The notes under the pieces are model-generated. The model saw nothing but the letters and a program-made list of their open reading frames with translations. It was not told the DNA's origin and searched no databases. DNA of 64,000 bases. It comes from Synechococcus sp. CC9605. Lineage in GTDB: Bacteria > Cyanobacteriota > Cyanobacteriia > PCC-6307 > Cyanobiaceae. Shown one piece after another: positions 7,300 through 44,122 of the stretch. The position numbers were made by a program, and so were the translations under genes. The stretch is from the NCBI RefSeq assembly GCF_000012625.1, contig NC_007516.1:806001-870000 (forward strand), in the 5' to 3' direction. Position 1 is the first letter of the stretch. Every line of letters starts with the position of its first letter.

Positions 7300-7506
7300 T
7301 CAGCGGCTGCTCTTGCGTTTGGCTCGGAGTGCAACGACCTTGCGATCTTTAGGGCTGGTTGGGTCAGAAATGTGAATGAATTCGCCCGAAATCTCAAAAA
7401 AAAGAGGTCGGCCCCTCAGCCCACCCCCAAACGACGCATTGAAGGCACCACTGCCTTCTGATCCATCATCGCTGACGGGTGAGCCCTCGCCCGGTATCAG
7501 TTGCAT
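7300..7506 (-). CDS. Small hypothetical protein (68 aa)
   Basis: I do not recognise this protein. It has a Gly/Ser-rich first half and a compact second half with RPLFFEISGEFIHISDP ending in a basic tail (RAKRKSSR). It converges on hemW 20 bp away. The second half looks protein-like, so a real gene is plausible, but there is no strong ribosome-binding site and no family assignment. Confidence 0.35.
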   Translation of the reverse strand: MQLIPGEGSPVSDDGSEGSGAFNASFGGGLRGRPLFFEISGEFIHISDPTSPKDRKVVALRAKRKSSR

Positions 7507-8056: not shown

Positions 8057-8872
8057 TCAAGTTCTATCGGCTTGGGTGATCCTCCCATTGGTGGGAGGAG
8101 TGTGGTTCCGGGTCTGATTGACCCAACCCTTCAATGCGTCGATGAACAGTCGGCGGCCATCCACGAGTGCTGGGCTGAAGGGAGGTTGTTTGGCGGTGAG
8201 CCCAAGCAGATCTGCCGTGACGCGCACTTGGCCATCGCAGTCATCACCTGCCCCGATGCCGATCACCGGGATGGTCAGGGCCTGCTGCACCCGGCACGCC
8301 AGCTCGGCTGGAACATGTTCCAGCACCAAGGAGAAGCAGCCCTTCTGCTCGAGGGTGCATGCTTGCTCGAGCAGGCGTTCCTGGCTGATGGCGTCCGTGG
8401 CCTGGCGGCGGTACCCCAGACGATGCACGGCCTGAGGCGTGAGGCCCAGATGCCCCATCACGGGAATGCCCATGCGCACCAGACGGTCGATCACGGCGAC
8501 AACCTCGGGTTCCGCTCCCTCCAACTTCACCGCCGCAGCACTGGACTCCTTCAGCAGGCGCCCTGCCGCTGCAACGGCGCGGTCTTCACCGCATTGGTAG
8601 CTGAGAAAGGGCAGGTCACAGACCAGCAGGGGCTGATCGGCGGGCATGGTCGTCAATCCTCGTGCCACCGCCTGGGTGTGATGGAGCATCTGGTCCAGGC
8701 TCACCGGGAGTGTTGTGGCATGACCCAGCGCCACCATGGCCAGTGAATCACCGATCAGCAGCACATCTGCACCGGCGGCTTCGGCCAGAGCTGCAGAGAG
8801 GCTGTCCCAAGCGGTGAGTACGGCGATGGGTTGGCCCTTCTGCTTGAAGCGGGTCAGATCAGAAGGACGCAT
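8057..8872 (-). CDS. panB: 3-methyl-2-oxobutanoate hydroxymethyltransferase
   Basis: It makes ketopantoate from 2-oxoisovalerate and methylene-tetrahydrofolate in pantothenate (CoA) synthesis. At 271 residues it has family length. The Mg-binding [15 protein letters not shown] and CDLPFLSY, the AVKLEGAE segment, the catalytic-Glu region LVLEHVP and the late [15 protein letters not shown] are all present. The start [13 protein letters not shown] is typical. It is transcribed away from the SRP RNA gene. Confidence 0.97.
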
Positions 8873-22429: not shown

Positions 22430-22442
22430 CACAGCGGAGGGA

Positions 22443-22486
22443 TGGGAGCCGGGGGACTTGAACCCCCAAGACCAGTGGCCGGCTGA
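22443..22486 (-). pseudogene. 3' half of a tRNA-Leu(CAA) split by the island
   Basis: On the minus strand this reads TCAGC (3' anticodon stem), a long class II variable arm (CGGCCACTGGTC), the T-arm GGGGGTTCAAGTCCCCC and the acceptor GGCTCCC with A73. No D-arm or matching 5' acceptor is adjacent; these lie 8.7 kb away at 31160-31198. Confidence 0.88.
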
Positions 22487-22500
22487 TTTTGAATCAGCTG
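22487..22500 (-). repeat. Attachment-site core, argD side
   Basis: Minus-strand CAGCTGATTCAAAA is the anticodon arm of the split tRNA-Leu. It matches the copy at 31160-31173 except for one base (T versus C in the anticodon loop, position 32). Confidence 0.8.
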
Positions 22501-22660
22501 ACGTTCCCTTGGTGACAGCGTTCTCACCGCTCTTGTCTTCCAAGGTGGTCATTCCGTCTTCCAAGACCTAGATCCATTCTGAATCCACGACTCCCCCTAC
22601 TGCATCTGGTTGTCACCCAACGGTGATCCTGGCTAGTACAGATGTACTTGCATAGGGCTC

Positions 22661-22909
22661 ATGAGGGAGGGATGGCTGATTGATCGGGACGGCTGCTGGA
22701 TCTGGCGGTTCCACCGTGATGAGAAGGCGTGGATCCGAGATCCCAAGATCTTCATCGACAGGGGGCGTCAGATGCCTGATGGCCCTCCTTTGCTGAAGGA
22801 GCGTCGGTATCTGCGGAAGGACGCAGCGGAGCAGTTCTGGAAGTCCCTTCAAACGCAGGGATGGGAACCTCTGAAGGAACCTGCTTGGGGCGCTGCTGCT
22901 GACGTTTAA
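22661..22909 (+). CDS. DUF1651 domain protein
   Basis: 82 residues with the marine-picocyanobacterial DUF1651 pattern: GWLIDRDGCWIWRFHRDEK, then WIRDPKIFIDRGRQMPDGPP, then an arginine-rich LLKERRYLRKDAAEQFW. The function is unknown. Genomes of this group often carry several copies, frequently in variable regions. It is the first cargo gene from the argD end, in the opposite orientation to argD. Confidence 0.88.
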   Translation: MREGWLIDRDGCWIWRFHRDEKAWIRDPKIFIDRGRQMPDGPPLLKERRYLRKDAAEQFWKSLQTQGWEPLKEPAWGAAADV

Positions 22910-22982
22910 GACGTTCGGCAAACCGTAAGCACAAATGCTTACTAGGCGGTGTTAGACCAGTCATATCGCATGAGAGCGAGGA

Positions 22983-23016
22983 ACCCAGGAGGTCAAACAC
23001 TCCTGGGTCTTTTCTT
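22983..23016 (+). terminator. Intrinsic terminator T1 of the island array
   Basis: A 9-bp stem ACCCAGGAG/CTCCTGGGT with an 8-nt loop, followed by CTTTTCTT. It lies 74 bp after the DUF1651 stop. Confidence 0.85.
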
Positions 23017-23027
23017 GGAAAACGCTC

Positions 23028-23142
23028 ACGGCACCCACGGCAGTCCCGCCTCATCGGTGAAGGTGGTGGTCGCTTGGCGTCGTCCCGCCCAGCGGCACTT
23101 TCAGTTTCCGAAGGAGCGATAGGGATACCGCTCCTTTTTTTG
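23028..23142 (+). ncRNA. Candidate small RNA unit A
   Basis: A non-coding unit of about 115 nt beginning GCACCCACGGCA and ending in terminator T2. It shares its start, an AAGGTGGTG block, a GCGTCGTCCC block and GCGGCACT with the unit at 23831-23942 in the same order. No ORF is supported. That it is transcribed as an RNA is inferred. Confidence 0.45.
23111..23141 (+). terminator. Intrinsic terminator T2
   Basis: The 7-bp stem AGGAGCG/CGCTCCT with a 10-nt loop is followed by seven U. Confidence 0.88.
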
Positions 23143-23260
23143 TGCCTAAAAGCGGACCGACAGGAAGGGTGTTCCCGCTACCTAAATCCCAATCCAGTAA
23201 AAATCGCTGCCGCTGCTCATATGGCGGGTGCCTACAACCTCAAAAAGGTGTTGCCTCGCC

Positions 23261-23431
23261 ATGTCTTACATAGACGCCAACCACCTCAAATCAACCTTTC
23301 AGCGGGAACTTTGGAGTGAGGTGGGGACCTGGTTGCTGGAGAGGACTCAAACGCTTTGGGATGGCGGGATGCCCGATGAAGCGTCTGCCCTCTATTCAGA
23401 GTTTTCCAGGGGCCCTGCTCTGGGCGAATGA
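23261..23431 (+). CDS. Small hypothetical protein (56 aa)
   Basis: The product starts MSYIDANHLKSTFQRELW and continues as a helical, acidic region (EVGTWLLERTQTLWDGGMPD, then EASALYSEFSRG). The composition and the repeated W/L pattern look protein-like, and the ORF fills the one long gap between terminators T2 and T3. An upstream in-frame start at 23228 gives a poor Cys/Arg-rich leader, so the ATG at 23261 is preferred. The function is unknown. Confidence 0.5.
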   Translation: MSYIDANHLKSTFQRELWSEVGTWLLERTQTLWDGGMPDEASALYSEFSRGPALGE

Positions 23432-23540
23432 ACTTCTGCCCTTGAGGGGTAGTTCCGCTCATGCCCCTGTGCTCTCACTCGCCTTAGAACAGGGATGAGG
23501 TCAGAGACCGATTACGACAAACCAGGTTTCAAGGACCTTC

Positions 23541-23568
23541 AGGGGGGTGTCTGCTCACCCCCCTTTTA
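23541..23568 (+). terminator. Intrinsic terminator T3
   Basis: The 8-bp stem GGGGGGTG/CACCCCCC is followed by TTTTAAT. Confidence 0.85.
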
Positions 23569-23589
23569 ATGAGCGGTTCTACCGATGGC

Positions 23590-23682
23590 GGCGGGTTTGT
23601 AACGCGACGAACATAAAAGAGCATCATCCGTAAGGGATGAATGCGTCGAGCAGAGCAGGGGGTGGGACCTCTGCTTTTTCTT
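23590..23682 (+). repeat. Non-coding repeat unit C ending in a terminator
   Basis: The unit opens GTTTGTAACGCGACGA, contains AAGGGATGAATGCGTCGA and ends in terminator T4. It aligns with the next unit (D) over most of its length, with a gap of about 20 nt in the middle, and its second half aligns with the unit at 24010-24090. Confidence 0.65.
23650..23682 (+). terminator. Intrinsic terminator T4
   Basis: The stem GCAGAG/CTCTGC with a 13-nt loop is followed by TTTTTCTT. Confidence 0.78.
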
Positions 23683-23700
23683 GGGTTGCTGACCCCAGTA

Positions 23701-23817
23701 GCCGTTTGGTTGTAACGGCGACGACCAGTAGGTGAACCCCGCGTAATTCTTCGAATGCTTCTTCGGTGAAGGGGCAATGCGTCGAACTAAGGGGGGGTGC
23801 GACCCCTCTTTTTTTTG
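23701..23817 (+). repeat. Non-coding repeat unit D ending in a terminator
   Basis: A tandem paralogue of unit C: GGTTGTAACGGCGACGA, then AAGGGGCAATGCGTCGA, then terminator T5. No credible ORF lies in it. Confidence 0.65.
23790..23817 (+). terminator. Intrinsic terminator T5
   Basis: A G-rich stem (GGGGT/ACCCC with flanking wobble pairs) is followed by eight U. Confidence 0.8.
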
Positions 23818-23830
23818 GCAGTTCGTAAAG

Positions 23831-23942
23831 GGCACCCACGGCACCCCTGGATGTCTCAAGAGGGTGGTGCGGCTGGTACCCCCAGTGTTTTCGACGCGTT
23901 CGTCCCCTTGTTTCTGGCGGCACTCCCTGCCGCCTTTTTTAT
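23831..23942 (+). ncRNA. Candidate small RNA unit B
   Basis: It begins GCACCCACGGCA like unit A, then AGGGTGGTGCGGCTGG, GCGTTCGTCCCC and GGCGGCACT, and ends in terminator T6. It is about the same length as unit A. Transcription is inferred from the terminator and the conserved order of blocks. Confidence 0.45.
23916..23942 (+). terminator. Intrinsic terminator T6
   Basis: The stem GGCGGCA/TGCCGCC with a 5-nt loop is followed by six U. It is one of the strongest in the window. Confidence 0.9.
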
Positions 23943-24009
23943 TGCTTGCGGACAACCGAACCAGGAACGGTCGTCACTACCTGTTCTGACGGTTCTCCTG
24001 CTCCTCGGA

Positions 24010-24090
24010 GAAGAGCATCTGGTGGAGAGTGGACGGGTCGAGAGACGAGGGGACGGGACCTCTGGGGTGAGAACCCAGGGGTCTTTTTTT
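24010..24090 (+). repeat. Non-coding repeat unit E ending in a terminator
   Basis: It matches the second half of unit C: AAGAGCATC, then GTCGAGAGACGAGGGG and GGGACCTCTG, but uses a different final stem (terminator T7). From 24091 to the next gene at 24270 I see no ORF or clear structure. Confidence 0.6.
24058..24090 (+). terminator. Intrinsic terminator T7
   Basis: The 9-bp stem ACCTCTGGG/CCCAGGGGT (one G-U pair) with a 7-nt loop is followed by CTTTTTTT. Confidence 0.88.
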
Positions 24091-24269
24091 GGCACTCTGT
24101 GGAAGCGGAGCGACCCTTGAGTGAGCACCTCAGCAGCGGTTGAAGCTGAGCGGTACCGTCGTGAGCGCAGGTAGAAGGCGTTACAGAGCCAGGGTGGAAG
24201 CGGCTTAGTGAACCGGCGTGGGGGTCAGCAGTGGCGGTCTGAGCAAAGACAGGATCACCACGACTAAAG

Positions 24270-29384: not shown

Positions 29385-29621
29385 ATGTTTAAGGCTCCTA
29401 CTCCTTGGCTCGATACCAAGGGCATATCCGAATATCTCGGCGTCTCTACCCGTCAGTTCAAGAACCTCAAGCGGTCATGGATTGACGCTGGGGAGATGGT
29501 CGAGGGCAAGCACTACCGAGTCTTCGGTACCCGCACCCACCGATACGACATGGAACAGATGCACCGACTCGCCCACCGGATGGGTCGGATTATTCCTTTG
29601 AGTACAGGCGGTCGGACTTGA
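29385..29621 (+). CDS. Small HTH DNA-binding protein, excisionase-like (78 aa)
   Basis: Compact winged-helix/MerR-like start: PWLDTKGISEYLGVSTRQFK, followed by a basic wing (KHYRVFGTRTHRYDMEQMHR). Proteins of this size next to tyrosine recombinases often act as directionality factors (excisionases) or element regulators; that is inference. Its last six codons and stop overlap the 3' end of the intact tRNA-Leu on the other strand, so the tRNA and the coding end constrain each other. Confidence 0.75.
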   Translation: MFKAPTPWLDTKGISEYLGVSTRQFKNLKRSWIDAGEMVEGKHYRVFGTRTHRYDMEQMHRLAHRMGRIIPLSTGGRT

Positions 29622-29684
29622 ACCGACAAGGGTTGCCCCGGCGCATTTTGAGTGCGCTGCGTCTACCAATTCCGCCACGCCTGC
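29603..29684 (-). tRNA. tRNA-Leu (CAA anticodon), intact, carried by the element
   Basis: The minus strand reads acceptor GCAGGCG paired with CGCCTGT, D-arm GGCGGAATTGGTAGACGC, anticodon loop CTCAAAA in the stem GCGCA/TGCGC, a long variable arm, T-arm GTCGGTTCAAGTCCGAC and A73. It differs in acceptor, anticodon stem and T-stem from the tRNA-Leu(CAA) split by the element, so it is a separate gene, not a duplicate. It lies 21 bp after the recombinase on the same strand and could supply the lost decoding of UUG. Confidence 0.94.
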
Positions 29685-29705: not shown

Positions 29706-31019
29706 TCAAGAGACCTGTGGGGTCCACCCTTTCTTCATCTTGCCCTGTGCAATCTGACGGGCGTAGGTCTTTCGGATCATCTCTGGTGATGTACCCATAG
29801 CCTCCGCTACGTGGAACTCATTGTTTCCATCGATAAGTGCCTTGCAACACCAGCGGTGGCGAAGGTCATAGGGGTAACAACCCAGATGGTCCTTGCATAG
29901 TTCGGTGATCTTTGCTGACTGTGTGGCGTACATACTTTCCAAAGACTCATCAGCTTCACGGTCAATAGTTTTCAACGTCTCCCATTCAGGTGGCTCGAAT
30001 CCTGAGAGGTCTACTTGCTCATCACCAAAGGGAAGACACCAAGTAATTCCGTTTGATTTTGTTTTGTTTGAGTAGACATACATCATCGTGATTCCATCTT
30101 TCTTCTGAATGTTGTCGTAGTCCATTGAGTAGATCTCTCGGTTCCTACGACCAAAGGTGACACAGGCGTACAGCAGCTTCTGTTCGTACGGGTCCTTGAT
30201 GGTCTTGAACCGCTTGCAGAGGATTGCGTCAGAAGGGATGAGACGGTCCTTCGGCTTCGATTCCCAGGTCGGCACCACCTCATTGGGCATCTGCATCGGC
30301 AAACCCATCTCCCGACAGGCGAACTTCAGGATGTCCAGCTCGTCCTTATAGAGCTTCGAGGCTCTGACCTGATCAAGGGTGTACTTGCCGTCCCGTTTGT
30401 TGGTCTGCAGCAGGACCCGCGCAGCACTCTCCACCGATAACGATTTCTTGTTGTCCACCAAGACCTGACCGATCTTGCTGATCACCGCCAGGTGCTTGTT
30501 CAGCTGCTTCTGATTGCACTTCCTCCCCTTGGTTCCGTCCTTGAGGGTGGCGTTCGGGTTCCCTTTCTTCATCACGATCTCTCGTGCCTCGGCGATCTGC
30601 TTACCGATGGGGGTTGAGGTCGGTATGACAACAGCGCTGCTTCGCCTGTCAGCGACCCTGCAAGAGGTTCCGTTGTTGGCTCGGCGGATCATGTCCCGAA
30701 CGATTGGTTCGAGCTGTCCCCAGGTCGTTATCCAGTCAGTTGGATGAAGCTTTATGTCGGTTGCTGTGGGAGTCCCTCGTCCGCTTTTGGTCAGCGCTTC
30801 GGGCTTCCACTCAGCCATCAGTTCCATCATGTGAAACCCGCCAGCGAGTGGTCGGGGTCTGGTCCTGATTCGGACCGCGTGCCCATTGATGGATTCATCG
30901 CTGAGCAGCTCGTTCAGTCGAGCCACTTCAGGGGTCCATGGGTAGGTGGATTTAGGTGCCACGTCGGCTAGCTGGATTCGATGCAACCACCATGCACGCA
31001 AGTCAACCTTGTCTACCAA
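29706..31019 (-). CDS. Tyrosine recombinase / integrase of the island
   Basis: 437 residues. The C-terminal catalytic domain shows the box I arginine in VTFGRRNREIYSMDY, a beta-hairpin Lys in YSNKTKSNG, box II PYDLRHRWCCKAL (Arg near residue 387) and the nucleophile in IRKTYARQ (Tyr419). The usual His before box II Arg and the His/Trp of the late GH motif are replaced (MGTSPEMI), as in divergent cyanobacterial recombinases. The N-terminal half contains an SAM-like helical DNA-binding region (KQLNKHLAVISKIGQVLVDN). It likely integrates and excises the element at the tRNA-Leu anticodon arm. Confidence 0.92.
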   Translation of the reverse strand: MVDKVDLRAWWLHRIQLADVAPKSTYPWTPEVARLNELLSDESINGHAVRIRTRPRPLAGGFHMMELMAEWKPEALTKSGRGTPTATDIKLHPTDWITTWGQLEPIVRDMIRRANNGTSCRVADRRSSAVVIPTSTPIGKQIAEAREIVMKKGNPNATLKDGTKGRKCNQKQLNKHLAVISKIGQVLVDNKKSLSVESAARVLLQTNKRDGKYTLDQVRASKLYKDELDILKFACREMGLPMQMPNEVVPTWESKPKDRLIPSDAILCKRFKTIKDPYEQKLLYACVTFGRRNREIYSMDYDNIQKKDGITMMYVYSNKTKSNGITWCLPFGDEQVDLSGFEPPEWETLKTIDREADESLESMYATQSAKITELCKDHLGCYPYDLRHRWCCKALIDGNNEFHVAEAMGTSPEMIRKTYARQIAQGKMKKGWTPQVS

Positions 31020-43183: not shown

Positions 43184-44122
43184 GTGTCCACAGCTTCCAA
43201 GCCGCTGGAGACGCAACGTCGGCGCAGCAGCGACCCCGTCAGTTGGTATCTCGCCACCATCGGCAGAATTCCACTGCTGACCCCAGCCGAAGAAATCGAG
43301 CTGGGCAATCAGGTGCAGGCGATGATGGCCTTCACCGAAGACGGTTCCCGTGAAATCGAGGATGGAGAACTCACCACGGCACAGCGCCGTCTCCTGAGGA
43401 TCGGTCGCCGCGCCAAAGAGCGGATGATGAAGGCCAATCTTCGTCTTGTGGTCAGCGTCGCCAAGAAATATCAAGGCAAGGGTCTGGAGTTGCTCGATCT
43501 GATTCAGGAGGGCTCCCTCGGCCTCGAGCGTGCTGTTGAGAAATTTGATCCCACTCGCGGTTACAAGTTTTCCACCTATGCCTTCTGGTGGATCCGCCAG
43601 AGCATGACCCGGGCCATTGCCTGCCAGTCGCGCACGATTCGTCTTCCCGTTCATCTCAGTGAGCGGCTCACCACGATTCGCAAGGTCAGTCTTGATCTGG
43701 CCCACAAGCTCGGCGCCATGCCCAGCCGTGTGGAGATCGCTGAAGCGATGGATATCCCCTTGGATGAGCTCGATTCGCTGCTGCGCCAGGCGCTCACCAC
43801 CAGCAGCCTGGATGCTCCCGTCAACGGTGAGGAGGGGCGCAGCTTCCTTGGGGATCTAATCGCTGATTCATCCCTCGATGAACCGCTCGACATCGTTGAA
43901 CAGCGGATTCATCACGAGCAGCTGGGCCGCTGGCTGAGTCACCTGAGCGAGCAGGAGCAGCACGTTCTGCGCATGCGCTTCGGGCTTGAGGGCAACGAGC
44001 GTCACACGCTTGCTGAAATTGGACGCCTGATGGAGGTGTCCCGCGAGCGGGTGCGTCAGGTTGAACTCAAGGCGCTGCGGAAGTTGCGCAACCTCACCCG
44101 ACGACTTCCGAGCGGCATCTGA
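43184..44122 (+). CDS. Group 2 RNA polymerase sigma-70 family factor
   Basis: Primary-like, non-essential sigma. Region 1.2 (DPVSWYLATIGRIPLLTPAE), region 2 (LELLDLIQEGSLGLERAVEK and YAFWWIRQSMTRAI), region 3, and region 4.2 (LAEIGRLMEVSRERVRQVEL) are complete. The long N-terminal region 1.1 of the major sigma is missing, which defines group 2 (SigB/C/D/E-like in cyanobacteria). GTG start. The 179-bp AT-rich upstream gap should hold its promoter. Confidence 0.94.
   Translation: MSTASKPLETQRRRSSDPVSWYLATIGRIPLLTPAEEIELGNQVQAMMAFTEDGSREIEDGELTTAQRRLLRIGRRAKERMMKANLRLVVSVAKKYQGKGLELLDLIQEGSLGLERAVEKFDPTRGYKFSTYAFWWIRQSMTRAIACQSRTIRLPVHLSERLTTIRKVSLDLAHKLGAMPSRVEIAEAMDIPLDELDSLLRQALTTSSLDAPVNGEEGRSFLGDLIADSSLDEPLDIVEQRIHHEQLGRWLSHLSEQEQHVLRMRFGLEGNERHTLAEIGRLMEVSRERVRQVELKALRKLRNLTRRLPSGI

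Follow-up and report, generated by a model that had tools for sequence, protein, structure and literature searches.

The small RNA (sRNA) Yfr1 is built of two stem-loops around an unpaired motif. In excerpts of PMC6778093, members of the Yfr10 group keep this short motif while the rest of the molecule drifts, and the motifs of Yfr1 and Yfr2 are nearly complementary to each other. In this study, we analyzed an array of terminator-bounded units at 22.9-24.1 kb of a 64,000-nucleotide stretch of the Synechococcus sp. CC9605 genome (contig NC_007516.1, positions 806,001 to 870,000; hereafter the window). Of its seven units, U1 to U7, two (U4 and U5) belong to a predicted RNA family with a AUGCGUCGA motif, and a sequence in U6 is nearly complementary to that of U4 and U5, much as in the Yfr1/Yfr2 pair. 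Rfam, whose families include Yfr1 and Yfr2/Cyano-1, gave no match to the array at gathering thresholds and only sub-gathering matches at a relaxed E-value. The family further differs from Yfr1, Yfr2 and Yfr10 in its motif, its main occurrence in two marine Synechococcus genera and its partly tandem arrangement.

NsiR1 of Nostoc consists of tandem, near-identical repeats of one sRNA. The present array is likewise made of tandem sRNA genes, as predicted, but has seven different units in fixed order, an apparent decoy and an apparent location on mobile islands. Tycheposons and other tRNA-bounded islands of picocyanobacteria integrate at tRNA genes, have direct repeats made of tRNA 3′ ends and encode an integrase. 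By description, some of the elements considered here resemble them in all three features, and their cargo would be an sRNA array. To our knowledge, Synechocystis 6803 lacks phycoerythrin. The predicted target here is phycoerythrin, unlike that of PsrR1 and ApcZ of Synechocystis, through which RNA control of light harvesting or photoprotection is described in excerpts of PMC8136909; the likeness drawn to these RNAs is one of function. Similarly, the noncoding RNAs (ncRNAs) of Prochlorococcus MED4, 9 of 21 of which lie in genomic islands with proposed roles in stress or phage response (excerpts of PMC2518516), are compared here by location, and our search model for the AUGCGUCGA family left other genera of the family Cyanobiaceae nearly empty.

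In open-ocean Synechococcus, the principal antenna protein is phycoerythrin. We propose, with a probability of roughly 0.6, that the array represents a cluster of tandem sRNA genes that is carried on tRNA-targeted elements and in which U4 and U5 repress phycoerythrin and U6 titrates them. The kind of system is known, namely a base-pairing sRNA family with tandem copies and a sponge. What we did not find described is the combination of modular arrays on mobile islands, a single antenna target and frozen synonymous codons. Among the titles and abstract openings listed for open-licence papers, there was no RNA regulator of phycoerythrin, and none of these loci appeared among Synechococcus sRNAs, although the array loci may already be known as transcripts. 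We put forward more tentatively, at somewhat less than even odds, that such elements carry arrays of start-codon-targeting sRNAs plus a decoy that together set the phycoerythrin level, and that the RNA family holds the spelling of the beta gene in place.

The predicted RNA family and phycoerythrin beta genes

A covariance-model search with a single unit, proposed in an earlier sequence-only reading of the window, was carried out with U5 (model R1, built from 29 copies). It found distant relatives scattered in the CC9605 genome and beyond, and the part common to them was the 3′ module only. This module contains a 5′ stem-loop, a mostly unpaired (A)AUGCGUC(G/A) motif and a terminator with a U-run. 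It occupies positions 23619-23679 in U4 (23569-23681, plus strand; seed AAUGCGUCGAGC at 23640-23651) and 23755-23816 in U5 (23682-23818, plus strand; seed AAUGCGUCGAAC at 23776-23787; alignment A1 of 29 copies), and both units were matched by R1 and by R3, a sequence-only model built on 44 modules. R3 detected 14 copies in CC9605 at E-values up to 1e-3, two in each of two arrays and ten elsewhere. Across 250 genomes of the family Cyanobiaceae, matches were present in 42, including 20 of 22 in the same genus, 17 of 25 in genus g45 and 5 of 203 in others; in a class-wide draw of 116 genomes, two were matched, CC9605 itself and a single genome of g45. Because R3 was built from these genera, absence elsewhere means absence at this sensitivity. 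On these matches, U4 and U5 are members of a dispersed, clade-restricted family of predicted sRNAs.

The architecture of the module was maintained while the sequences of its stems changed. Among 73 distinct motif-holding modules, an upstream stem of at least four pairs lying wholly 5′ of the motif was found in 69 and a terminator stem in 71, with 42 and 41 different stem sequences, respectively. The motif was mostly unpaired in 62 of the 73 (mean unpaired probability 0.80 in array U5, only 0.48 in array U4), and the folding z-score averaged -2.04 and was below -2 in 41. Identical modules were counted once, and all these counts are conditional on the motif, because candidates without it were left out: 28 lacked GCGT(C/T) (20 U7 units, six U4, one U5 and one second site of L117), and 6 U7 modules that have GCGT(C/T) were also excluded.

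The CC9605 genome contains 13 sites that read TYGACGCATT, complementary to the motif. Eight are family members read on the opposite strand, one is a U6 unit (1424135), and four lie elsewhere. Two of these four sites are codons 2-5 of two phycoerythrin beta genes (ATG CTC GAC GCA TTC; 423128 and 431112), and the other two are inside panB (window 8057-8872) and antisense to an open reading frame (ORF) at 1481253. The 184-amino-acid gene at 423124 was identified as phycoerythrin beta (NCBIfam E 4.5e-100), and a 178-amino-acid gene at 431125 starts alike (MLDAFSR), with phycoerythrin alpha (E 5e-82) encoded after it. The two genes, at 423.1 and 431.1 kb, bracket position 425184, which belongs to the CC9605 phycobilisome cluster in the available part of PMC5069720. 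In array U4, GAAUGCGUCGAGCA is a gapless and perfect 14-nt complement of both beta starts, and this was the only match of at least 12 nt between the 1.2-kb array and three phycobilisome stretches, besides a T-rich 12-mer. When duplex energies of 13 CC9605 copies were ranked against 96 other gene starts, array U4 came first of 97 for each beta gene, a first rank for both that was shared only by the copy at 1438800.

The predicted target itself is unusually constrained at silent sites. The spelling ATGCTCGACGCATT (ATG CTC GAC GCA TT) was present in 56 of 57 beta starts of the same genus and in 52 of 52 of g45, that is, in 108 of 109 together. The beta-start pattern was matched in 30 of 34 same-genus genomes and 27 of 31 g45 genomes; it admits only CTN for leucine, and TTA or TTG starts would escape it. 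In a control with 60 beta genes (only ORFs over 150 amino acids), codons 2, 3 and 4 were the same in 59, 60 and 60 genes, whereas the commonest codon reached a mean frequency of 0.68 at 102 degenerate codons past codon 6 with a conserved amino acid, only 7 of which attained 0.98. GCA was used at Ala-4 in all 60 genes, compared with 268 of 1762 at other alanines. The wobble base of Phe-5, just outside the complement, varies (47/13). At the same loci, codons 2 to 5 of the alpha-subunit starts vary (52 genes; 0.57-0.90), and so the frozen beta codons are not a general start-codon effect. When pairing energies were averaged over the 73 modules, the native spelling of codons 2-5 ranked first of 96 synonymous sets (-22.99); for 49 modules it was itself the best set or differed from the best by no more than 0.1. 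Among the matches listed for other genera, spelling was mixed (often GCC, CTT or GAT), and CTC GAC GCA was seen outside the two genera, among those same matches, in G088 and one G035 gene. Two g45 genomes with completeness of at least 90% and no match to the phycoerythrin pattern (G178 and G186) were also without an R3 match. Conserved complementarity at the first codons of a target, together with constraint at silent sites, is a sequence criterion for a start-codon antisense sRNA, and both were found here.

Under the proposed mechanism, each unit of the array would give rise to a short RNA ended by its own terminator. U4, U5 and the ten dispersed relatives would pair over codons 2-5 of cpeB/mpeB mRNAs, which would block ribosome entry and lower antenna synthesis. 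Copies with different promoters could allow different signals, possibly including iron, to call on one target. U6, being a copy of the target sequence, would soak up silencers of the U4/U5 type, and the remaining units, U1, U2, U3 and U7, would also be sRNAs.

The decoy part of this scheme centers on U6 (23819-23940, plus strand), which carries UUCGACGCGUUCGUCCCC, a mimic of the phycoerythrin beta start, at 23890-23907. Many U6 copies contain (U)UCGACGC(A/G)UUCGUCCCC, a near copy of the target start that is antisense to the U4/U5 seed, and (C/U)GACGC was found in 27 of 29 U6 copies read. We consider a decoy role of U6 possible but, on balance, doubtful.

Organization and conservation of the array

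The sequence-only reading had described seven same-direction terminators in this region, and all of them were recovered at, or a few bases from, the positions it gave. They are plus-strand hairpins followed by T-runs at 22983-23008, 23111-23137, 23541-23564, 23653-23676, 23789-23811, 23916-23934 and 24055-24085, spaced at about 110-140 nt except for a long gap after 23142. A consensus scan of both strands between 20 and 27 kb found 19 terminator-like sites, compared with 7.5 +/- 2.6 in shuffled sequences. In a hairpin-energy scan of both strands of the 64 kb, nine plus-strand sites (the seven terminators and weaker ones at 23065 and 23684) and two minus-strand sites were located in 22.9-24.1 kb. 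The rest of the window had 1.17 plus-strand sites per 1.2 kb, and its densest other 1.2 kb had five sites on one strand; the stacking that had been described is real.

U1 (22912-23018, plus strand) is a predicted sRNA unit with a hairpin (UCGC/GCGA) before the first terminator, and compensatory changes on both sides were observed in 6 of 12 predicted pairs among 14 aligned copies. A DUF1651 protein (22661-22909, plus strand; Pfam E 3.9e-23) is encoded directly upstream. U2 (23019-23145, plus strand), also predicted as an sRNA from its alignment, contains a hairpin, a highly conserved CACUUUCAGUUUCCGAAGG stretch and the second terminator, and its copies in relatives are 80-100% identical. The leader of the beta gene at 423124 (L163) contains GGTTTCCGAAG and has a 10-mer, GTTTCCGAAG, in common with the conserved U2 stretch in the same sense; U2 might mimic this leader. 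The predicted unit U3 (23445-23568, plus strand), which includes the third terminator, holds nested GAGGUC/GACCUUC and GAGACC/GGUCUC stems. Both-sided change was seen in 1 of 20 pairs among 20 aligned copies, and covariation is almost absent because the stems are nearly invariant.

Upstream of U5, an imperfect palindrome (23708-23726, plus strand; about -49 to -31 of the presumed start) includes several invariant columns among the 29 copies and is a possible activator site. A putative -10 box (AATTCT, 23745-23750, plus strand) has its second and sixth bases (A64 and T68) at least 90% conserved in these copies. The palindrome and the possible -10 box are at the right spacing and would together form a promoter of U5. 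U7 (23941-24095, plus strand; alignment A2 of 17 U6-U7 copies) is a predicted sRNA unit with the strongest terminator by hairpin energy, and some of its copies resemble the AUGCGUCGA module. The idea that all units form one tandem family therefore held in part: U4 and U5 clearly share this module, but U1, U2, U3 and U6 differ.

The small ORF that had been noticed in the long gap (23261-23431, plus strand; 56 amino acids) is a real coding gene, judging from third-position-biased divergence among five copies. Compared with the copy at L029, it shows 0, 2 and 10 differences at codon positions 1, 2 and 3. No Pfam family matched the protein, and a tblastn search of phage records found nothing similar.

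Whether related genomes keep the units had been named as a test, and BLAST indeed matched the array in 19 of the 34 genomes of its genus, CC9605 counted, with one weak match outside the genus; 59 genomes were searched. When only matches covering at least 60% of a unit were counted, 18 of 41 stretches carried at least four different units, ordered as U1-U7, some with duplicated blocks or extra units; in three of the 18 (L048, L049 and L051), U1 is about 0.9 kb away from U5-U7. Related contigs came from Synechococcus sp. MU1642, AG-670-B23 and an uncultured Synechococcus. CC9605 itself has a second array at 778523-779410 (matched pieces 85 and 88% identical), a U6-U7 pair at 1423943-1424215 and a lone U5 at 1932273-1932410, and a model of U6-U7 gave three strong copies in this genome. 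Beside the U6-U7 pair, at 1424218-1424244 (L141), there is an apparent decayed U5 in which the terminator is left and the seed was not seen; relatives have U5-U6-U7 at this or similar loci. Searches of phage, plasmid and viral-contig sequences with the array, its motifs and the 56-amino-acid protein gave no match.

By eye, copies of the AUGCGUCGA family fall into class A, with terminators like GGGAGGGNUUAGGGAACCCUCC, and class B (GAAGGC..GCCUUCAAUGCGUC..). One dispersed class B member lies in the window at 7399-7450 on the minus strand (genome 813399-813450; R3 E 8e-6) and has the stem-loop, seed and terminator; its upstream box, CATTAATGCCTAATTAG, is like that of other class B copies. Fur-box-like stretches (GAGAATGATTCTC, AATGATTATT and AATGATTCTCATT) occur near some class B copies (L135 at 1537041 and L133 at 1432801) and near L139 (1155883), a weaker match to the family, and a common AGTAATGCCTA-type box lies well upstream. 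Boxes such as GAGAATGATTCTC at some class B copies would tie antenna repression to iron.

Mobile-element context

Seven loci were examined, covering relatives and the second CC9605 array. At four of them, a tRNA gene bounds the array on one side and a direct repeat of the tRNA 3′ end on the other. At L029, L030 and L034, the tRNA is tRNA-Phe, with repeats of 26-27 nt located 6.9-8.5 kb away. The 27-nt repeats of L029 and L030 are accompanied by a 475-amino-acid integrase-like ORF (phrog_1, E 6e-8 and 2e-8), whereas L034, with a 26-nt repeat, has a 475-amino-acid ORF without a family match. At L028, a 15-nt repeat of tRNA-Ser was found at 1.04 kb, and an integrase was not sought. No repeat of at least 14 nt was present in the DNA examined at L036, L037 and L038. 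The full set of tRNA, repeat and integrase was thus found at two of the seven loci, L029 and L030. The tRNA-Phe elements with an integrase-like ORF suggest integrative elements as the carriers of at least some arrays.

In the window, a truncated tRNA-Leu-like remnant with a sub-threshold Rfam match (22442-22508, minus strand) lies to the left of the array, just upstream of an argD-like gene, and an integrase-like ORF is present at 29706-31019 (minus strand; phrog_1, E 0.023). An integrative element may possibly extend between about 22.5 and 31 kb. A small ORF at 29385-29621 (plus strand), without a family match, was read as excisionase-like, and this ORF and the integrase-like ORF flank tRNA-Leu(CAA) at 29602-29684. 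That the remnant and this tRNA-Leu bound one island was considered and rejected, since their sequences differ. By BLASTP, the integrase-like ORF of the window is not similar to that of L030.

Two class B copies, at 998245 and 1537041, are located just downstream of tyrosine-recombinase-like ORFs (L124, 996000-1001000, ORF 987-2156, E 5e-5; L123, 1535000-1539500, ORF 98-1225, E 1e-9). The copies at 998245 and 1432801 have identical modules, which suggests recent movement.

Competing explanations and implications

Several observations weigh against phycoerythrin as the target or against the wider scheme. The control pattern, the motif complement read backwards, occurs 4 times in the genome; the extra complement sites are not above chance in number, so that only their position is telling. 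Whole-module pairing energies fail to single out phycoerythrin for most CC9605 copies: array U5 ranks 6 and 7 of 97 gene starts, the copy at 998245 ranks 42 and 77, and that at 1389175 ranks 48 and 84, and a gene start at 43322 of the window has matches of 11-13 nt to U5-type modules. Given these unremarkable ranks, the case rests on the motif and the silent-site test. With respect to the latter, a GCG spelling pairs nearly as well (-22.89 vs -22.99). One same-genus genome (G008) and six g45 genomes (G160, G169, G225, G230, G240 and G263) keep the beta codons without an R3 match, though the R3 search used strict filters, and, as the genomes are related, the 109 genes cannot be counted as independent events. 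The GCGT(C/T) core was lost in seven copies, six of U4 and one of U5. In the module alignment (A4), RNAalifold gave no consensus pair, as the stems differ in length and do not line up, and single-sequence folds were used instead. For the decoy, most whole-unit duplex tests of U5 or U4 with U6 were not significant (z between -3.0 and +1.3), with duplexes dominated by long, low-specificity pairing, and the decoy idea consequently relies on the conserved motif. A tandem sRNA cluster in which AUGCGUCGA serves protein binding or other mRNAs, with a coincidental or ancestral match to cpeB/mpeB, would account for the short gapless complementarity (only 7-9 nt) and unremarkable duplex ranks of several dispersed copies, and for the several genomes that keep the beta codons without a detected family member. 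We regard this as unlikely, though worth serious attention: against it stand two of only four non-family complement sites, which lie at the two phycoerythrin beta starts, and silent-site freezing that ends where the complement does and is not seen in the alpha subunit.

Other explanations concern the units themselves. The sequence-only reading had offered a transcription-insulating cassette as an alternative to tandem sRNAs. Nine plus-strand terminator-like sites in 1.2 kb would fit a cassette that shields the island or its neighbors from read-through, but such a function needs hairpins only. Here, the unpaired stretches between stems belong to the best-conserved parts, the motif persists while stems change, and units are also found by themselves at other loci, as in the case of the U5 at 1932273. 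Conserved units, conserved order and the retention of unpaired motifs argue for the tandem sRNAs of that reading, and we consider the cassette very unlikely. Equally improbable in our view is that two or three units form one long ncRNA of the Yfr103 type, for which we lean to no. In the available part of PMC5069720, Yfr103 is 290-328 nt long, has seven paralogues in CC9605 and carries an imperfect palindrome at -29 to -58. Clade, strain and multi-copy occurrence agree, and the palindrome of U5 has a similar position relative to its presumed start. However, homologues of Yfr103 are reported there for CC9902, CC9311 and Prochlorococcus strains including MIT9313, SS120 and NATL, while R3 left nearly all other genera empty; and, comparing by description only, R3 modules are about 60 nt with 14 copies and the U6-U7 model gave three strong copies rather than seven. 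A structural DNA or RNA part of an integrative element, such as a replication origin, recombination sites or an integron-like attC array, is the idea to which we give least credence. It would fit the arrays found in tRNA-bounded elements with integrase-like ORFs and the two dispersed copies near tyrosine-recombinase-like ORFs. However, single modules of the same kind are also found scattered over the genome, where a T-run follows the stem on one strand, and an attC or origin role needs neither U-runs nor a complement of phycoerythrin.

In the available part of PMC5069720, a start site located upstream of mpeB, one of the proposed targets of U4/U5-type sRNAs, is among the most active of all in situ. 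With a motif of 7-10 nt in 14 copies and a target in frozen synonymous codons, the question is directly testable. If the proposal is true, light-harvesting capacity would be tuned by horizontally moved RNA genes, and, if their mobile carriage is true as well, antenna size in these marine Synechococcus would be partly controlled by travelling DNA.

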